Shown here piece by piece: positions 8,594 through 15,703 of a stretch of 64,000 bases of DNA (position 1 is the first letter of the stretch; each line of letters starts with the position of its first letter). The DNA is taken from IMG/VR virus record IMGVR_UViG_3300046727_000675, positions 1 to 64,000 of that record, one strand, 5' to 3'. The translations under genes and the position numbers were made by a program. Origin of the DNA: a virus. The notes beneath the pieces are model-generated. The model was given only the letters and a program-made list of their open reading frames with translations, was not told the origin of the DNA and searched no databases.

Positions 8594-10819
8594 TTGGCCA
8601 GCCCGAACAATTCGATTGTCATCCGCCCGCTGACGCAGCTGGCGTCGCTGTTCTCCGACAAGAAGCCGGCGTTCGAGGCCCCGGCGGGCTACATCGAGGG
8701 CGTCGACGCCGCGAAGTGGCCGTCGCCGCTGCAGCCCGTCGCGCCGATGGGCCCCGCCGGCACCGAGCCGAAGGCCTTCCAGTTCTACGAGGGGCAGAAC
8801 CTGCAGTGGACGCCGCGCTTCGACGCGGAGTACTCCGCCGCGGACCTCAAGGCGCTCGCCACCTACCCGCTCGTCCGCATCTGCATCGAGAACGTGAAGG
8901 ACGTGATCTGCGACATGCCGTGGCAGATCCGGCCGCGCCCGACGCCGGGCGAGTCGATCAAGGAGAACGCGAAGCGCGCGGCCGGCGACAAGGCGATCCT
9001 GAAGGCGACGCGCTTCCTCGAGCGCCCCGACGGCCAGCACACGTGGGACGAGTGGCTGCGCCCGTGGCTCGACGACCTCATCGTGATCGACGCGCCCACG
9101 GTCCTGGTGCGCCGCAACTTCGGCAAGGGCACGCGGCCCGGCGGCGACGGCGACCTCCGCGAGCTGCGCGTCCTGCGCGGCGACTCGATCTCCGTGTACA
9201 TCGACCAGAACGGCTGGAGCCCGAACCCGCCGTCGATCGCGTACGCCCAAAACTGGTGGGGCCTGCCGCTCGTGGACATGACGCGCGACCAGTGCCTGTA
9301 CCGCCCGCGGAACATCGCGCCGCGCAACACGGTGGCGTCGCAGCTCTACGGCTACTCCCCGGTCGAGCAGCTCGCGCCGGAGCTGCAGATCGGGATCGCC
9401 CGTCTCGCGTTCGTCCTCGCCTACTACAAGGACGGCTCGGTGCCGGGGGTCGTGCAGGTCGCGCCGAAGGGGACGACGCCGGAGCAGATCAAGGAGGCGG
9501 CGCAGTGGATCAACTCGGACATCGCGGGGAACCTCGCGAAGCGCCGGCAGTGGAACATCATCCAGGGCTTCCAGGAGGACGGGAAGGCCGAGCAGATCAT
9601 CATGACGAAGGAGCCGCTGCTCGCCGACCTCTACGACGAGAAGCACATCCGCGAGGTGGCGTTCGGCATCGGCGTCAGCCCGCAGCGGCTGATGAAGTCG
9701 ATGAACCGCGCGTCGGCGGAGCAGTCGGACGACGCGGCGGAGACCGAGGGCACGCGGCCGTACGTGCGGTCGGTGCGCGGCCTCATGAACCACGTGCTGC
9801 AGGTGGTGATGGGGCTCGAGGAGTACGAGTTCGTCATCGACCCGGTCAAAGAGCTGGACATGGCGAAGCAGGCCGAGGCGCTGACGGCGAAGGTCGGCAA
9901 GGCGCTGATGACGCCGAACGAGGGCCGCGAGGCGCTGGGCCTCGACCGCGACCCGACGCCCGAGGCCGACAAGCTCGGCGTGATCACAGGCACGGGCTTC
10001 GTGACGCTCGAGCAGACGGCGCAGGCGGCGAACACCGCGGCGCAGGCCGCAGTTCAACCGGGAGGGAAAGATGGCGGTGATAACGCGCCGGTGGGTAAGC
10101 CGGGAGGAGCTGGAAAGGGAGCGGACGCGGGAAAGTCCGCGCGCTCGAAACCTAATGGACATGATCCAGCGGAGGATCATCGCGTACCGCGACCAGTTAA
10201 CTCGCTCGGGTTCGCCGCGGGAGCCGCGCCCGTAGCGCCTCCGGCGGTCGGCAAGTACTCCGAGGACGAGGCGCGCGACGAGCAGGGGCGGTGGACAGAG
10301 GGCGGAGAATCTTCGGCTGATGAGAAGGAGAAGTTGAGTAAAGCATTATGGAGCTGGCAGTCGGGCAGCGATGATGAAGGGGCAAAGGCCGAGCATTACA
10401 TCCAATCGGGCGAGCCGGAAGGCAGCGAGATCGTGAAGGGCATCCGGAACGAGACCTTCGGCGTGACGGCCTGGCGCGGCATGTTCGTTGAGAACGACGA
10501 CGCGATCCTTAAGCTGAAGACGGGGGACACGCTGCAGCTGATGCCGAGCTCGTTCAGCGATGACCGTAAAGTAGCCGCAAAGTTTTCAACGGGTGAGACG
10601 CTCGGGATGGAGGGCGAAAAGGGCTGGGGTGGGGTCATATTGCGCGTTAACAAGACCGCTGATGGGGCCGAGCCGCACGGCATCATGGTCGGCGACCGCG
10701 GTCATCCGGCTTGGCGGCAAGAAAATGAGATCATCACCGGCGGTCAGTTCACCGTGACGCGCGTCAACAAGTCGAAGAAGGCTACAACGCTTTTTATCTC
10801 GCAGAAGGGGATATTCTGA
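8594..10819 (+). CDS. Portal protein fused to an ADP-ribosyltransferase-like domain
   Basis: Residues 1 to about 500 are a portal protein, the 12-fold DNA gate at one head vertex. The fold is suggested by PLVRICIENVKD, the crown-like KELDMAKQAEALTAKVG and the NEGREALGLDRDP segment typical of HK97-like portals. After a Gly/Lys-rich linker comes the KYSEDEARDEQGRW module (residues 554-567). A C-terminal domain follows with a WRG arginine (R628), an SFS motif (653-655) and an ExE pair (E710, E712). That order is the R-S-E signature of arginine-specific ADP-ribosyltransferases. The start is TTG 8594 with only a weak upstream GGGGAA, so it is less certain. The enzymatic activity is inferred from motifs. 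The fusion would place the enzyme on the virion portal, for possible delivery at infection. Confidence 0.85.
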   Translation: MASPNNSIVIRPLTQLASLFSDKKPAFEAPAGYIEGVDAAKWPSPLQPVAPMGPAGTEPKAFQFYEGQNLQWTPRFDAEYSAADLKALATYPLVRICIENVKDVICDMPWQIRPRPTPGESIKENAKRAAGDKAILKATRFLERPDGQHTWDEWLRPWLDDLIVIDAPTVLVRRNFGKGTRPGGDGDLRELRVLRGDSISVYIDQNGWSPNPPSIAYAQNWWGLPLVDMTRDQCLYRPRNIAPRNTVASQLYGYSPVEQLAPELQIGIARLAFVLAYYKDGSVPGVVQVAPKGTTPEQIKEAAQWINSDIAGNLAKRRQWNIIQGFQEDGKAEQIIMTKEPLLADLYDEKHIREVAFGIGVSPQRLMKSMNRASAEQSDDAAETEGTRPYVRSVRGLMNHVLQVVMGLEEYEFVIDPVKELDMAKQAEALTAKVGKALMTPNEGREALGLDRDPTPEADKLGVITGTGFVTLEQTAQAANTAAQAAVQPGGKDGGDNAPVGKPGGAGKGADAGKSARSKPNGHDPAEDHRVPRPVNSLGFAAGAAPVAPPAVGKYSEDEARDEQGRWTEGGESSADEKEKLSKALWSWQSGSDDEGAKAEHYIQSGEPEGSEIVKGIRNETFGVTAWRGMFVENDDAILKLKTGDTLQLMPSSFSDDRKVAAKFSTGETLGMEGEKGWGGVILRVNKTADGAEPHGIMVGDRGHPAWRQENEIITGGQFTVTRVNKSKKATTLFISQKGIF
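10253..10294 (+). repeat. KYS-GRW module, copy 1 (portal)
   Basis: Encodes KYSEDEARDEQGRW at the junction between the portal body and the ADP-ribosyltransferase-like cassette. Its 42 bases match copy 2 at 40 positions, so the two are near-identical direct repeats about 650 bp apart. Confidence 0.85.
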
Positions 10820-10821
10820 CC

Positions 10822-13740
10822 GTGCAGATTGTCGAGTACAACTCGGAGCTGTTGACGGTGCCATTCGACCCGCAGCGGATGACGCGCGGGAAGACGGAGA
10901 AGCTCGCCAAGTACTCGGAGGACGAGGCGCGCGACGAGCAGGGACGGTGGAGCTCTTCCGGCGGCTCCGGCGAGAACCGCCAGTTTCTCGACATCGTCGC
11001 CGAAGACCACGGGGCGAAGGTTGACTCGAGCGGCGTGACGGGCTCATTCGAACTGAAGCGCGACGAGACGTTCTACCGCGCGGAGGCCAATCCCGATCGC
11101 GCGCGGCGCTCTGGGTTGAAGGCGAGCCTGCCGCCGGAGGTAGCGGAGGGCGCCGACAAGGAAGATCACAAGGCCCTGACCGGCGTGTACCTCACCGATA
11201 AGGAGACGGCGACCGCGTACTTGAACGGACGCCTCGATGGCAAGGGCGAGGTGATCGCGGTCCATCTTCCGGAGGGGACGAGAATCTACCAGGACCCCGT
11301 GGACGACGAGGCGATCTTCGTGCGGGAGAGCCTTCCATCGCACGCGGTCGAGGGCGGCAGGCAGATGAGGGTATTCAAGCTCTCCCACGGCGACGCGCGG
11401 ACGATCATCCACCCGGGGCGCCTAGCGCCGACGTCGATCCTGGCGAAGCACCGGCTCGAGAAGATCCTGGCCAACGCCTTCGGCAAGATGCGCCGGAAGA
11501 CGGTGCGCGCGCTGCGGCGCGAGGCGGGGATCGCGGCGAAGGCGCTGCTCTCCAAGCAGCGCAAGTTTGACTCCGTGCAGTTCAATCTCGACGAGGCGGA
11601 CGCAAAGAAGGTCCTCGCGATCGCGGTCGACGAGCAGGACTGGGACCCGAAGGGACGCGACCTCGAGCCGCACGCCACGGTGCTGTTCGGCTTTGACGGC
11701 GCGACGTTCGACCAGGTCGAGGCGCTCACGCGCGGCACGGGTGACTGCCCCGCGGAGCTCGGCGAGCTGTTCTGCTTCCCGGCCGGAGACCACGGGTCGC
11801 CGCTGGTGATCCGGTTGAAGTCGCCGGAGCTGGTCGCGCTGCACGACAGGCTGTCCGCGCTGCCGCACACGGACACGCACGATGAATACATCCCGCACGT
11901 CTGCGTCGGCTATCTTAAGCCCGAGGCGGCGGAGAAGTATGTCGGTAAAGACTATGCGGGCCAGGGTGAGACGATCGTCCTCAAGGATCTGATCTTCTCG
12001 CTGCGCGACAAGACGCGCTTGTCGTTGGAGAAGGCGCTCGAGTATCTGAAGTATAGTGAAGATCAAGCAAGAGATGAGAATGGAAGATTTGCGTCTGAAG
12101 AAGACTCTGAGGGACGCGCAAAAACAATTTTGTACCATGGAACTACCGAAGAGGTAGCAAAAAAGATTTTTGATGAAGGATTAGACGCTTCAAGAGCTCC
12201 TGGGGGAACCTTTGCCACTGATTCCAAGCTTAGCGCGTTGGGGTACGCGAAGGGAGGAGCAAAATTTGAAGCTATTGAACGGGGAATGTCGAAGGAAGAT
12301 CGTAACAATCAATTAATCGGATTGGTGATCATAAAAGACCCCGAAAAAGCGGGGTTCAAGTATCTTCAAGGAGCCCCGGGATATTATTCTTCTACTAGCA
12401 ATGTTTCTCCTAACTTTGTAGATCGTGTTGAATTTTATAGATATGGAGATATATCGTCTTCAAATCCAAAACCAGCAAAAATTATTTCTAAAAATGCGTC
12501 AAAAAATAGTGTGGAAATTTACGTTCCAATTTTACTGAAAGAAAGTAAGACTGAGAAATTTACGAAGGCACTCGACGACGCGACGCAGCAGATCCTCGAC
12601 TCGCTCGCCGCGGAGTGGGAGGCGCTGGCGAAGGCCGCCGTCCTGCCGCTGACCGACGCGTCGACCGCGGGCGCCGACGCCGGCGCGCTGCAGCTCGACA
12701 TCACCGGCGACGACATGCTCGGCCGGGTCAACACCGTGGCCCGGGAGTGGGCCGCGGACCGCGCCGCGGAGCTGGTCGGCATGCGGTTCACGGATGACGG
12801 CGACCTGGTTCCGAACCCCGACGCGCGCTGGGCGATCTCCGATACGACGCGGGAGAGGTTGCGCGACGCGATCGCGCGGGTCTTCGCGGAGGAGCAGCCG
12901 ACGCTGAAGGACATCGAGGACGCGATCGCGGACGCGGGGATCTTCGACGACAACCGCGCGACGATGATCGCCCGGACCGAGGTCAGCCGGGCGCAGGCGC
13001 AGGGGAACCTCGACGCCTGGAAGACGAGCGGGATGGTCGAAGAGGTCAACTGGGTCCTGTCCGACGATCACGATGACGATGATATCTGCAATGAGAACGA
13101 AGAGGAGAGCCCGTACGCGCTGGGCGAGGTGCCGGAGTTCCCGGCGCACCCCAACTGCATGTGCGGGCTGACGCTCGGCCGGCTGAAGGGCGAGCCGGAG
13201 GACGCGGAGAAGGTGCTGAAATACTCGGATGACGAGGATCGCGACGAAAATGGACGTTGGACCGGTGGTGCCACGCACGGAACGTCGGTGTCCGCGGCGA
13301 AGAAGATCATGAAGGAAGGAATTAAATCAGGAAAAGTTTTAGGAAATGGGCAGCTCGGCTCTGCCTATGTCTCGCGCGACCCCGTGGTGGCGTTGTCGTT
13401 CGCGAAAGAAGCTGGGATGAACGAGTACACGCGGCTTTATCCTAACGCGCGCGTCGCTGAGCTTGACAGCAAAGCGAAGGCCGCTCTCGTGGTTCTCAAG
13501 CCTGGCGTAGAAAATAATTGGACACAGGAGCCCGATCGCCAGATTTTTAGGACCGAGAAGACGATTCCGGCTTCTAAGATTGATCGTGTGGAGATTTATT
13601 CGGTGAAGTCGATCAAGGATAGCATTGGCACGGGAAGTCTTCCGACCCCGGAAAAAATTATTCGCAAGGACGCTTCATCATCTGAGGAAGACACATTTTA
13701 CATCGCGGCAATCTTTGAAGAGAATGCGGAGGAGAGCTAG
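10822..13740 (+). CDS. MuF-type minor head protein with three ADP-ribosyltransferase-like domains and a 2H phosphoesterase domain
   Basis: A 972-residue polyprotein-like minor capsid protein. In order: KYS-GRW module (30-43); ART-like region (about 80-190: FYRAE, GVYLTD, EAIFVRE); 2H phosphoesterase region (about 245-400) with HAT at 284-286 and HVC at 359-361; KYS-GRF module (410-423); ART-like region (about 435-575) with YHGT at 438-441; MuF/head-morphogenesis domain (about 580-785), with MIARTEVSRAQ near 715-725 and HPNCMC near 776-781; KYS-GRW module (800-813); ART-like region (about 817-965) with HGT at 819-821. The second and third ART-like regions share internal motifs and a similar tail, so they are paralogous. 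Their DNA, especially 12050-12560, is much more AT-rich than the neighbours, which suggests acquisition. GTG 10822 follows the portal stop by two bases. MuF assignment is firm; the catalytic roles are inferred. Confidence 0.85.
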   Translation: MQIVEYNSELLTVPFDPQRMTRGKTEKLAKYSEDEARDEQGRWSSSGGSGENRQFLDIVAEDHGAKVDSSGVTGSFELKRDETFYRAEANPDRARRSGLKASLPPEVAEGADKEDHKALTGVYLTDKETATAYLNGRLDGKGEVIAVHLPEGTRIYQDPVDDEAIFVRESLPSHAVEGGRQMRVFKLSHGDARTIIHPGRLAPTSILAKHRLEKILANAFGKMRRKTVRALRREAGIAAKALLSKQRKFDSVQFNLDEADAKKVLAIAVDEQDWDPKGRDLEPHATVLFGFDGATFDQVEALTRGTGDCPAELGELFCFPAGDHGSPLVIRLKSPELVALHDRLSALPHTDTHDEYIPHVCVGYLKPEAAEKYVGKDYAGQGETIVLKDLIFSLRDKTRLSLEKALEYLKYSEDQARDENGRFASEEDSEGRAKTILYHGTTEEVAKKIFDEGLDASRAPGGTFATDSKLSALGYAKGGAKFEAIERGMSKEDRNNQLIGLVIIKDPEKAGFKYLQGAPGYYSSTSNVSPNFVDRVEFYRYGDISSSNPKPAKIISKNASKNSVEIYVPILLKESKTEKFTKALDDATQQILDSLAAEWEALAKAAVLPLTDASTAGADAGALQLDITGDDMLGRVNTVAREWAADRAAELVGMRFTDDGDLVPNPDARWAISDTTRERLRDAIARVFAEEQPTLKDIEDAIADAGIFDDNRATMIARTEVSRAQAQGNLDAWKTSGMVEEVNWVLSDDHDDDDICNENEEESPYALGEVPEFPAHPNCMCGLTLGRLKGEPEDAEKVLKYSDDEDRDENGRWTGGATHGTSVSAAKKIMKEGIKSGKVLGNGQLGSAYVSRDPVVALSFAKEAGMNEYTRLYPNARVAELDSKAKAALVVLKPGVENNWTQEPDRQIFRTEKTIPASKIDRVEIYSVKSIKDSIGTGSLPTPEKIIRKDASSSEEDTFYIAAIFEENAEES
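10909..10950 (+). repeat. KYS-GRW module, copy 2
   Basis: Encodes KYSEDEARDEQGRW near the start of the MuF protein, just before its first ART-like region. The DNA differs from copy 1 at only two positions. Confidence 0.85.
12049..12090 (+). repeat. KYS-GRF module, copy 3
   Basis: Encodes KYSEDQARDENGRF and marks the left edge of an AT-rich ART-like cassette. The DNA begins AAGTATAGTGA, shared with copy 5. Confidence 0.85.
13219..13260 (+). repeat. KYS-GRW module, copy 4
   Basis: Encodes KYSDDEDRDENGRW after the MuF core and before the last ART-like cassette. It shares the ATGGACGTTGGACC end with copy 5. Confidence 0.85.
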
Positions 13741-13741
13741 C

Positions 13742-15703
13742 ATGCCATACTCGACCGTAGATCAGGTTCCGTCCTACGTGCCGGCGGGAAAGCGCGCGCA
13801 GTGGATGGCCGTCTGGAACTCGGCGCGCAAGGCCGCGCTGAAGGACGGGATGCCGGACAAGGACGCGGAGGCGAAGGCGTTCCGCGAGGCCAACGGCGTC
13901 GCCGGGCCCGGGTCGGAGAAGATCACGAAGTATAGTGACGACCAAGAACGCGATGATCATGGACGTTGGACCGAGGCAGCTTCAACCAAGAAAGATCATC
14001 GTGATGCTATGAAGTGGCACGACGCGAAAGCGGCGGAGGAAGAAGCTGCAGGACATCCGGTGACGGCAGATTACCACCGTGAAGCTGCAGGAAAACATCA
14101 ATATGCGGTCAGCATGGCAGGGAAAAATGGTCCTGGTGTTGACCCGGATCATTCAAAATCAGCAAATCGATCTTCAAAAGAAGCTAACCGGGCTTCTCAG
14201 TACGCGGCAAGACAAGATAAAGAAAAATCATCAGGAGGTGAAATGAAGAAGACCGAGGTGCCGGACAACGAGAAGCAGAGCCAGGTCGGGGTCGGCTACG
14301 AGAACCCGAGCTCCCGGCCGGGCGCGACGTGCGCCGGCTGCGTCCACTTCATCTCGCCCGACCGCTGCGAGCACGTGCAGGGCCCGATCGCCGCGGCGGC
14401 GTGGTGCCTGAAATTCATCAAGTGCGCTGAGGAGGAAAAGACCGTGACGACGACGCTCAAGAAGTTCATCCCGTTCGCGAAGGTGGACAACTCGATCGAC
14501 CCCGCGACCAAGCTGCCGCGCCGCGAGGTGTGGGGCATCGTCACCGCCGAGGTCCCCGACAAGGAGGACGAGGTCTGCGACTACGCGAAGTCAAAGCCGT
14601 TCTACCAGGCGGTGATCGACGAGATGTCCAAGGCCACGGACGGCAGGAACATGTTCCCGCTGCGCGAGATGCACGGGCTCTCCGCCGCGGGCAAGTGCAT
14701 TGGCTTCGAGTTCCGCGACGCCGACCGCGAGATCTTCATGGGCTTCAAGGTCGTCGACGACCAGGCCTGGAAGAAGGTCGACGAGGGCGTGTACACGGGC
14801 TTCAGCCAGGGCGGGTCGCTCGTCGGCGCGCTGGCGCCGGACCCGGTCTTCGAGGGCTGCATGCGCTACACGGCGAACCCGAGCGAGGTGTCGCTGGTCG
14901 ACAACCCGTGCCTCGCGGCCGCGCACTTCGCGTACGTGAAGGCGGACGGCTCGGTCGAGCTGCGTAAGTTCAAGCGGACGGAGGTCGCGCCGACGTCTAC
15001 GCGGCTCGAGAAGCTGGAAAAAGAAGTTGCGGATCTTCGTAAGGCGACGGGCACGGCCCCGCTCACGAAGACGGTCGACGGCGAGGCGCTCGCCGCGGAC
15101 GCGTTCGCGATCGCCGGCGACGCGAAGAAAGTTTCCACGTGGCGGCTGCCGCTCAGGTTCGCGACGAAGCAGAAGTCGGCGGCCTACGTGGCGCGCGCCG
15201 CGCTGCTCGTCAAGTTCAGCCCGAGGCTGTTCACGGACGCGGAGGCGAAGCAGGCCCTGAAGGCGATCGCGACGGCCGCGGACTGGGCGGGGGTGGACCC
15301 GCTGGCCGTCGTCCTCGAGTTCATCAAGGTGGGCGACCTCCTGCGCGGCGGGCTGCGCAAGCGCGTCAACAAGCTGGCGAAGACCCGGGACCCGGGCCAC
15401 CGGCTGAGCTTCGTGGACGCGGACCTCGGGAAGATGTCGATCGTCGCGCAGCGCCCGGCGAACGCGCAGGCGGACCTGGAGAAGGGCATGTACGAGGTCG
15501 GGCAGCTCGCCTGCCTCGTGCAGCAGCTCTCGTACCTCGTCTACGCCGCGGTGTACGAGCGCGAGCAGGAGCAGGACGGGTCGCTTCTCCCGCAGGACCT
15601 GACGGAGAACGTCGACGCGCTGCTCGACACGCTCGTCGCGATGCTCGCCGAGGAGGCGGGCGAGCTCAGCGAGGAGCTGAACTCGCGGGCCCACGGCGCC
15701 TAG
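13742..15703 (+). CDS. Prohead protease (XkdF-like) with ChaB-like N-terminus and KYS-GRW insert
   Basis: Maturation protease of the head. ATG 13742 has GGAGGAG a few bases upstream. Residues 1-58 resemble the ChaB-like segment found in phage head proteins (MPYSTVDQVPSYVP, then AFREANGVAGPG). A KYSDDQERDDHGRW module (63-76) and a helical, more AT-rich insert follow. Residues about 195-230 contain four Cys in a HiPIP-like order (CAGC, C, C). The XkdF-like protease region follows (about 245-410), with LREMHG and GVYTGFSQGG. A C-terminal helical domain completes the protein. A second in-frame ATG at 14243 with a perfect ribosome site may give a shorter protease lacking the first 167 residues. 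Protease family from known phage synteny and motifs. Confidence 0.8.
   Translation: MPYSTVDQVPSYVPAGKRAQWMAVWNSARKAALKDGMPDKDAEAKAFREANGVAGPGSEKITKYSDDQERDDHGRWTEAASTKKDHRDAMKWHDAKAAEEEAAGHPVTADYHREAAGKHQYAVSMAGKNGPGVDPDHSKSANRSSKEANRASQYAARQDKEKSSGGEMKKTEVPDNEKQSQVGVGYENPSSRPGATCAGCVHFISPDRCEHVQGPIAAAAWCLKFIKCAEEEKTVTTTLKKFIPFAKVDNSIDPATKLPRREVWGIVTAEVPDKEDEVCDYAKSKPFYQAVIDEMSKATDGRNMFPLREMHGLSAAGKCIGFEFRDADREIFMGFKVVDDQAWKKVDEGVYTGFSQGGSLVGALAPDPVFEGCMRYTANPSEVSLVDNPCLAAAHFAYVKADGSVELRKFKRTEVAPTSTRLEKLEKEVADLRKATGTAPLTKTVDGEALAADAFAIAGDAKKVSTWRLPLRFATKQKSAAYVARAALLVKFSPRLFTDAEAKQALKAIATAADWAGVDPLAVVLEFIKVGDLLRGGLRKRVNKLAKTRDPGHRLSFVDADLGKMSIVAQRPANAQADLEKGMYEVGQLACLVQQLSYLVYAAVYEREQEQDGSLLPQDLTENVDALLDTLVAMLAEEAGELSEELNSRAHGA
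13928..13969 (+). repeat. KYS-GRW module, copy 5 (protease)
   Basis: Encodes KYSDDQERDDHGRW between the ChaB-like region and the protease. The DNA shares its start with copy 3 and its end with copy 4, so it looks like a product of recombination among copies. Confidence 0.85.
14233..14245 (+). promoter_or_regulatory. Internal ribosome site and in-frame start within the protease gene
   Basis: AGGAGGT at 14233-14239 precedes ATG 14243 by the right spacing, in frame with the protease and exactly at the end of the AT-rich insert. It is among the strongest Shine-Dalgarno sequences in the window. It would yield a 486-residue protein with the Cys cluster and protease but without the ChaB-like and KYS-GRW parts. 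Confidence 0.6.

Follow-up and report, generated by a model that had tools for sequence, protein, structure and literature searches.

A short conserved peptide that probably heads exchangeable payload cassettes on phage head proteins

Why would a phage carry the same 14-residue stretch five times in neighbouring head genes? The question is raised by bases 1-64000 (the window) of the 87,304-base IMG/VR virus record IMGVR_UViG_3300046727_000675, in which five copies of a module with the approximate motif KYSxDxxRDExGRW are spread over three consecutive head genes, encoding a portal, a MuF and a protease-like protein. A sequence-only reading of this DNA had placed the five modules in these proteins, which our motif scan bears out for all of them, and had proposed that the 42 bases themselves are a recombination joint allowing effector cassettes to be swapped at fixed points of head proteins. 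We arrive at another view of the module, which is probably maintained as a peptide rather than as DNA and forms the N-terminal header of payload cassettes that are fused to head proteins and can be exchanged.

All five copies are in frame on the plus strand (Table 1). A degenerate DNA pattern of the motif has five matches in the whole record, all at module sites, and the reversed pattern, used as a control, has none; the repeat is therefore real and restricted to the head genes of the record. The motif as first written holds overall, except that copy 3 ends in F and copy 5 has RDDHGRW in place of RDExGRW.

Pattern scans for the short form of the module returned 89 stretches in IMG/VR and 21 in bacterial genomes, mostly of Alphaproteobacteria, and 169 non-redundant copies remained after removal of duplicates. 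Their consensus is K-Y-S-[PED]-D-Q-[PEA]-R-D-[DE]-[HRQ]-G-R-[WF], followed by T-S-G-G-G or a similar sequence. The search pattern left little or no freedom at R, D, G and several other consensus positions, and their invariance was not counted. Positions 13 and 14 were free in the search, and they covary, with W13-T14 in some copies and F13-[G/A]14 in others (p=3e-20). A longer form, KY[SN]PDQPR[VAE]PAGxxxGGQ[WF]T, is found on the same contigs, and a scan for it gave 82 stretches. The two forms interchange, with the same upstream families and the same downstream families, and are therefore treated here as two versions of one junction. In short-peptide tblastn searches of phage records, one short and one long query had one weak match each and a second short query had none, and plasmid records gave no match; at this sensitivity, cultured-phage records hardly contain the module. 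Several loci encode multi-module polyproteins. In L056, six modules lie in one open reading frame (ORF) of 2262 codons that runs off the contig end, and L006 (36 kb contig 3300032285_002215) has nine module-headed cassettes in two polyproteins of 892 and 1497 codons; L049 and L076 also belong here. Loci L022 (1-5594) and L063 (4979-8559) consist of rows of small ORFs of about 110-190 residues without a head domain, in which a common 35-residue leader (like EYxxYLxxxxxxGGxxGxxAxxxL) is followed by the module and then by unrelated domains.

The module is not followed by one fixed domain, a point on which the idea of cassettes had been made to depend. Downstream segments of the short form (n=150) match 39 Pfam families, and those of the long form match 14, with CdiA-CT RNase A foremost. 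Most of the families are ADP-ribosyltransferases and other toxins. Among the short-form tails, ADPrib_exo_Tox (13), Zeta_toxin (6), ART (5) and ART-PolyVal (4) lead, and Ntox37, CdiA-CT RNase A, Pesticin, glutamine deamidase, PI3/4-kinase, acetyltransferase and SprT are each matched once or a few times; further matches are to Alt-like RNA polymerase ADP-ribosyltransferase PHROGs, to nicotinate-nucleotide adenylyltransferase (two segments) and to Dps-like models. On the upstream side, the matches are to portal, MuF, S78 and XkdF protease and other head families, and Nitrospirillum and its relatives have a different, uncharacterised domain there, encoded by chromosomal genes. Taken together, the matches on both sides show one peptide, in its short and long forms, through which many unrelated predicted effectors are attached to a head domain, to a short leader or, in bacteria, to another N-terminal domain.

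Some of these loci deserve mention in their own right. L024 (170-2557) encodes a portal-module-Pesticin (lysozyme-like) fusion, and L013 and L049 have module-headed domains that look nucleotidyltransferase-like by eye, possibly NAD-related anti-defence payloads. The Nitrospirillum loci and those of related chromosomes (L096-L107, L109, L116-L135) hold paralogues made of one N-terminal domain, the module and differing C-terminal domains, some of them in tandem. In a pooled scan of the neighbourhoods of these and other bacterial loci, the 25 Pfam families that occurred most often include terminase and portal and mostly represent ordinary chromosomal genes; among these 25, no head-gene family stood out near the Nitrospirillum modules.

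Exchange of the cassettes can be followed in relatives. In an all-against-all comparison, 106 pairs were alike upstream only, 60 downstream only and 30 on both sides. Swapped phage pairs such as L050/L062, L025/L087 and L029/L040 have upstream DNA that is 89-97% identical, and this identity is lost within about 15 bases of the module start, the modules themselves being 57-79% identical; over swapped phage pairs in general, the figure for the module is 52-79%. L062/L070 is the reverse case, with tail and module in common and upstream parts unrelated, and L062, L083, L085 and L070 combine two leaders with two tails in all four ways, the likeness of the short leaders of L085 and L070 having been judged by eye. 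The MuF cluster that includes copy 4 of the window has nine members and six tail types (eight aligned). As far as sequences can tell, cassette turnover at fixed points of head proteins, one part of the sequence-only reading, is hereby confirmed, near-identical upstream DNA leading into unrelated tails in related phages. That reading had further suggested looking for near-identical DNA at the module itself beside divergent cassettes; in the swapped pairs the cassettes do diverge, but the module DNA does not reach such identity. For 67 short-form pairs, homology stops anywhere between hundreds of bases before the module and about 100 bases after it, and in Nitrospirillum it does so mostly at +17 to +60. 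In L066 (3788-6115, minus strand), a window-like portal (49% over the upstream segment) has two tandem modules spaced 21 residues apart, which looks like the loss or the insertion of a cassette at this place.

Within the window, boundaries were sought by segmentation of third-position GC (GC3), blind to the positions of the modules. Break-points fell at 12052, 13219 and 13931. The second coincides with the start of module 4, the other two lie one codon from the starts of modules 3 and 5, and none of 200,000 random placements put three of the five modules within one codon of breaks. Modules 3, 4 and 5 thus appear to have arrived together with their downstream sequence. Cassettes 3 and 5 end at 12570 and 14242, and cassette 4 ends at the stop codon. 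Modules 1 and 2 are without such a break, the nearest being 18 and 236 codons off. Over all loci, the GC3 test did not place the module on the side of the downstream part (17/35 cases of large shift); that the module sides with the cassette has been shown for the window and the phage pairs only. A constant part with variable tails at one boundary is seen in related loci, and in the window it is read from composition only.

Is the module kept as DNA or as a peptide? Copies 1 and 2, both within GC-rich coding sequence, are identical at 40 of 42 bases, exactly as the sequence-only reading had counted. From local codon usage, however, 11.0 of 14 identical codons are expected and at least 12 occur at P=0.37, so that the match is explained by the codon bias of the GC-rich phage. 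Copy 3 has just 2-3 of 11 same-residue codons in common with copies 1 and 2. The mosaic that had been taken for a trace of recombination is present, copies 3 and 5 being alike at the 5' end and copies 4 and 5 at the 3' end, but the synonymous codon identity of the five copies is 0.47 against 0.50 expected, and the mosaic is therefore no evidence of recombination inside the module. The nine copies of L006 are alike at 13.4 of 14 residues, with a synonymous codon identity of 0.52 against 0.46 expected, and the 13,853 short-form pairs with unrelated flanks have 0.413 against 0.387. Since synonymous codons are near random despite the agreement of residues, the short-form module is conserved as a peptide, not as DNA. 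The long form, found in contigs of mostly alphaproteobacterial type, has some DNA-level excess in unrelated contexts (0.480 observed against 0.361 expected), and it may have a role at the DNA level. The variable positions of the module agree more within a phage contig (0.654) than between contigs (0.401; permutation p<0.001), which points to co-adaptation with a partner specific to the phage, or to exchange inside lineages.

A store of alternative tails is found behind some head genes. In L014, a complete portal gene is followed by two partial portal genes of the same C-terminal portion; the repeats are 740-782 bp long and 94-98% identical, and the shared DNA stops 2-3 bases into the module. 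The orphan tails are Ntox37 and a glutamine-deamidase-like domain, and one small ORF precedes each orphan. L172 and L162 have the same tandem layout, with portal ends bearing CdiA-CT RNase A tails, as does L209 with the S78 prohead protease; L183 and L222 have a similar layout, judged by shared C-terminal sequence. Tandem orphan copies with alternative tails are thus present in L014, L172, L162 and L209, and there are none in the window. The arrays show head-gene ends, each with the module and an alternative tail, stored as tandem orphan copies, and the head-gene repeat, rather than the module, would be the obvious recombination substrate.

The opposite state is represented by a cultured relative, Brevundimonas phage Polewnik. 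Its portal, 34% identical to that of the window, runs straight into a MuF domain that shares 29% identity with its window counterpart, and its protease-like protein, 39% identical to the window's, is without the first 241 residues of the window protein, module 5 included. The module is absent from both Polewnik proteins. By this comparison, Polewnik is the cassette-free state, and this head architecture needs neither modules nor cassettes.

Table 1. Head genes, module copies and cassettes of the window (positions are those of the window)
Feature	Position	Strand	Basis
Portal gene with C-terminal module 1 and cassette 1	8594..10819	+	Pfam Phage_portal E=7.7e-18, residues 94-449; PHROG 2662 portal
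Module copy 1, KYSEDEARDEQGRW	10253..10294	+	motif pattern
Cassette 1, portal C-terminus	10295..10816	+	ART-like by eye (WRG...SFS...ENEI), without family match
MuF gene with modules 2, 3 and 4 and their cassettes	10822..13740	+	Phage_Mu_F E=8.9e-4, below cut-off; MuF-containing PHROGs down to E=7.5e-15
Module copy 2, KYSEDEARDEQGRW	10909..10950	+	motif pattern
Cassette 2: unassigned N-terminal stretch followed by a 2H phosphoesterase (about 11635-11940), the whole between modules 2 and 3	10951..12048	+	
Module copy 3, KYSEDQARDENGRF	12049..12090	+	GC3 drops from 0.90 to 0.29 one codon in
Cassette 3, AT-rich insert, GC 0.39	12091..12570	+	ART-PolyVal E=0.004, below gathering cut-off
MuF domain	12904..13164	+	
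Module copy 4, KYSDDEDRDENGRW	13219..13260	+	GC3 break exactly at first codon
Cassette 4, MuF protein C-terminus	13261..13737	+	without family match
Protease-like gene (XkdF/S78_2-like, distant) with module 5 and insert	13742..15703	+	Peptidase_S78_2 only E=0.17
Module copy 5, KYSDDQERDDHGRW	13928..13969	+	GC3 break one codon in
Cassette 5, AT-rich insert within protease-like gene	13970..14242	+	helical by eye

The MuF gene of the window sits directly 3' of the portal gene (10819 to 10822). No small ORF, as a putative immunity gene would be, lies directly 3' of the MuF gene, the protease-like gene beginning right after its stop codon. A single ORF beside the portal combines a 2H phosphoesterase, a weak ART-PolyVal match and MuF. 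The 2H phosphoesterase of cassette 2 scores just above its cut-off (PF13563, E=3.8e-6), and the cassette also matches the RNA ligase PHROG 755 (E=1.4e-11); a match of the 2H domain (11635-11940) to the anti-CBASS protein Acb1 (E=1.4e-4) is below cut-off. The cassettes had been described as ADP-ribosyltransferase (ART)-like or helical, and for the ART label support is weak, cassette 3 alone scoring, below the cut-off. Cassette 4, C-terminal to MuF, matches neither Pfam families nor, by sequence, solved structures, and the comparison of cassettes 1, 3 and 4 with solved structures by sequence gave nothing convincing. When cassettes 4 and 5 and the portal were searched in IMG/VR, the close relatives were contigs of the same phage only. 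The protease-like protein is 30% identical to capsid maturation proteases of Streptomyces phages, besides its likeness to the Brevundimonas phage protein. Structure predictions were too poor for use, with a mean predicted local distance difference test (pLDDT) score of 50 for MuF-module-cassette 4 and of 58 for the Nitrospirillum N-terminal domain, and a fold search with the MuF-module-cassette 4 model had no match better than E about 1.

What might such a header do? Tails would be exchanged mainly via homologous recombination in the upstream head-gene DNA, or by illegitimate joining near the module. The head domain would bring the payload into the prohead, where the module and the Gly/Ser linker behind it might be used as a recognition site, and processing there, for example by the maturation protease, would release the payload for ejection with the DNA. 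A putative site of processing by a phage-specific factor, the maturation protease for instance, is the most likely version of this role, though we advance it tentatively; the multi-module polyproteins and the phage-specific sequence of the peptide fit it. A docking or packaging signal is the next most likely version, nearly as likely as processing, and an insulating linker is a more doubtful one. In its most general form, and just as tentatively, our proposal is that of a head-cargo junction peptide in two loop-length forms, present in many phages and some alphaproteobacterial genomes and read by a trans-acting phage factor, which would serve as a general code for attaching, loading or releasing arbitrary enzymes, the orphan arrays behind portal and protease genes being used to change the payload.

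Several points weigh against the header as a recognised and processed site. We infer, rather than observe, both the recogniser and cleavage at the module. Cassettes 3 and 5 have an N-terminal module only and continue into MuF and the protease, and cleavage at the modules alone would therefore not free them. As chromosomal proteins of Nitrospirillum carry the module with no head-gene family standing out nearby among the 25 commonest Pfam families of the pooled scan, the prohead protease is unlikely to be a universal recogniser. In the bacterial arrays, where homology ends at +17 to +60, the module partly stays with the upstream side. The likeness of modules within a phage could stem from exchange limited to phage lineages and, finally, 14 residues are long for a protease site.

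Alternatively, the peptide might bind scaffold, portal or capsid and stay uncut. A lineage-specific module sequence suits a binding partner, the stand-alone ORFs of L022 and L063 comprise only the short leader, the module and the payload, and the Gly-rich linker behind the motif resembles cargo-loading tags. Nevertheless, most copies are already fused to a head protein, for which docking is unneeded, and the predicted structure, of low confidence, is without a confident contact between the MuF domain and the module. Docking or packaging without cutting is possible, and we hold it to be only somewhat less likely than processing. Less probable is a passive spacer, that is a flexible, tolerated linker without a partner that is inherited with the cassettes. 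Gly/Ser-rich sequence does follow the module, and the very low prediction confidence beside MuF would be as for disorder; however, the peptide is constant across GC-rich and AT-rich cassettes while the codons change, and the W-T/F-[G/A] covariation also argues for more than a spacer.

As for the 42 bases serving as shared homology for cassette exchange, the central suggestion of the sequence-only reading, it has in its favour that exchange boundaries lie at or near the module and that the long form shares codons in unrelated contexts above expectation. The other observations speak against it: the modules of swapped pairs are less alike than the DNA before them, the breaks in the window are at the 5' edge of copies 3-5, the identity of copies 1 and 2 is accounted for by codon bias and short-form codons are near random, the long head-gene repeats offer far better homology, and cassettes 3 and 5 are without a second module at the far end. 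On the codon tests and break-point positions, this explanation was dropped for the short form, and we hold it to be improbable as a whole. That the module might be the N-terminal part of one effector (ART) domain family, as could be suggested by ADP-ribosyltransferases being the commonest tails, is refuted by tail diversity, since the unrelated families behind the module number in the dozens and since it is also found in front of the helical insert before the protease and in front of chromosomal toxins; we see practically no chance for it.

If the module is an N-terminal header of exchangeable cassettes, it provides a simple sequence handle for payloads probably carried in phage heads, including unknown toxins and anti-defence enzymes, and the attachment, exchange and release of head-fused effectors become directly testable. 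How does this arrangement relate to known systems? T4 internal proteins such as Alt have a capsid-targeting sequence that is cut by the prohead protease. The idea of a short peptide that loads enzymes into the head for injection would be common to both, a comparison by concept and not by sequence, whereas the module sits between fused domains.

In the MuF polymorphic toxins of temperate phages (PMC5576092; Bxa, PMC11699363), toxins including ADP-ribosyltransferases are fused to MuF beside the portal gene, and their delivery with the phage DNA has been proposed. The window MuF gene likewise lies beside the portal (compare Jamet et al. 2017), and cassette 4, C-terminal to MuF, has no family match. 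In contrast to those toxins, there is one conserved junction peptide here, payloads are found on portal and protease too, the cassettes occupy more than one internal site, and no immunity gene is seen among the window genes; the portions of the two papers available to us do not describe a junction motif. The polyvalent proteins of phages and conjugative elements (Iyer et al. 2017, PMC5512222) are multidomain proteins encoded near portal-terminase genes, with ART, 2H and other effectors, and are predicted to be packaged and injected. An ORF with several effector-type domains beside the portal, as in the window, is reminiscent of them. Here, however, one peptide heads cassettes in different head proteins, and we found no common junction peptide or orphan array in the portions of that paper available to us.

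The closest parallel in layout comes from bacterial polymorphic toxins (CdiA with PT-VENN, Rhs; Zhang et al. 2012, PMC3482391), which have a constant N-terminal part, a junction and a variable toxin, with tandem orphans and small ORFs between them. Module loci have in common with these contact-dependent inhibition (CDI) and Rhs systems the orphan-tip layout and certain toxin families, namely CdiA-CT RNase A and Ntox37. Unlike in CDI/Rhs, the role of the constant part is taken by a phage portal or prohead protease, and none of the pre-toxin domains given in the consulted portions of PMC3482391 corresponds to the junction peptide. A search for the motif strings in the open literature, which would miss motifs in figures or in papers outside it, found none, and no description of the junction peptide or of portal/protease orphan arrays was found in the open literature searched. 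MuF toxins, polyvalent proteins and polymorphic toxins as such have already been described. Portal and protease genes of phages can bear orphan cassette arrays like those of bacterial contact-dependent toxins, and phages appear to swap head-fused payloads in much the way that bacteria exchange the tips of the toxins with which they compete.
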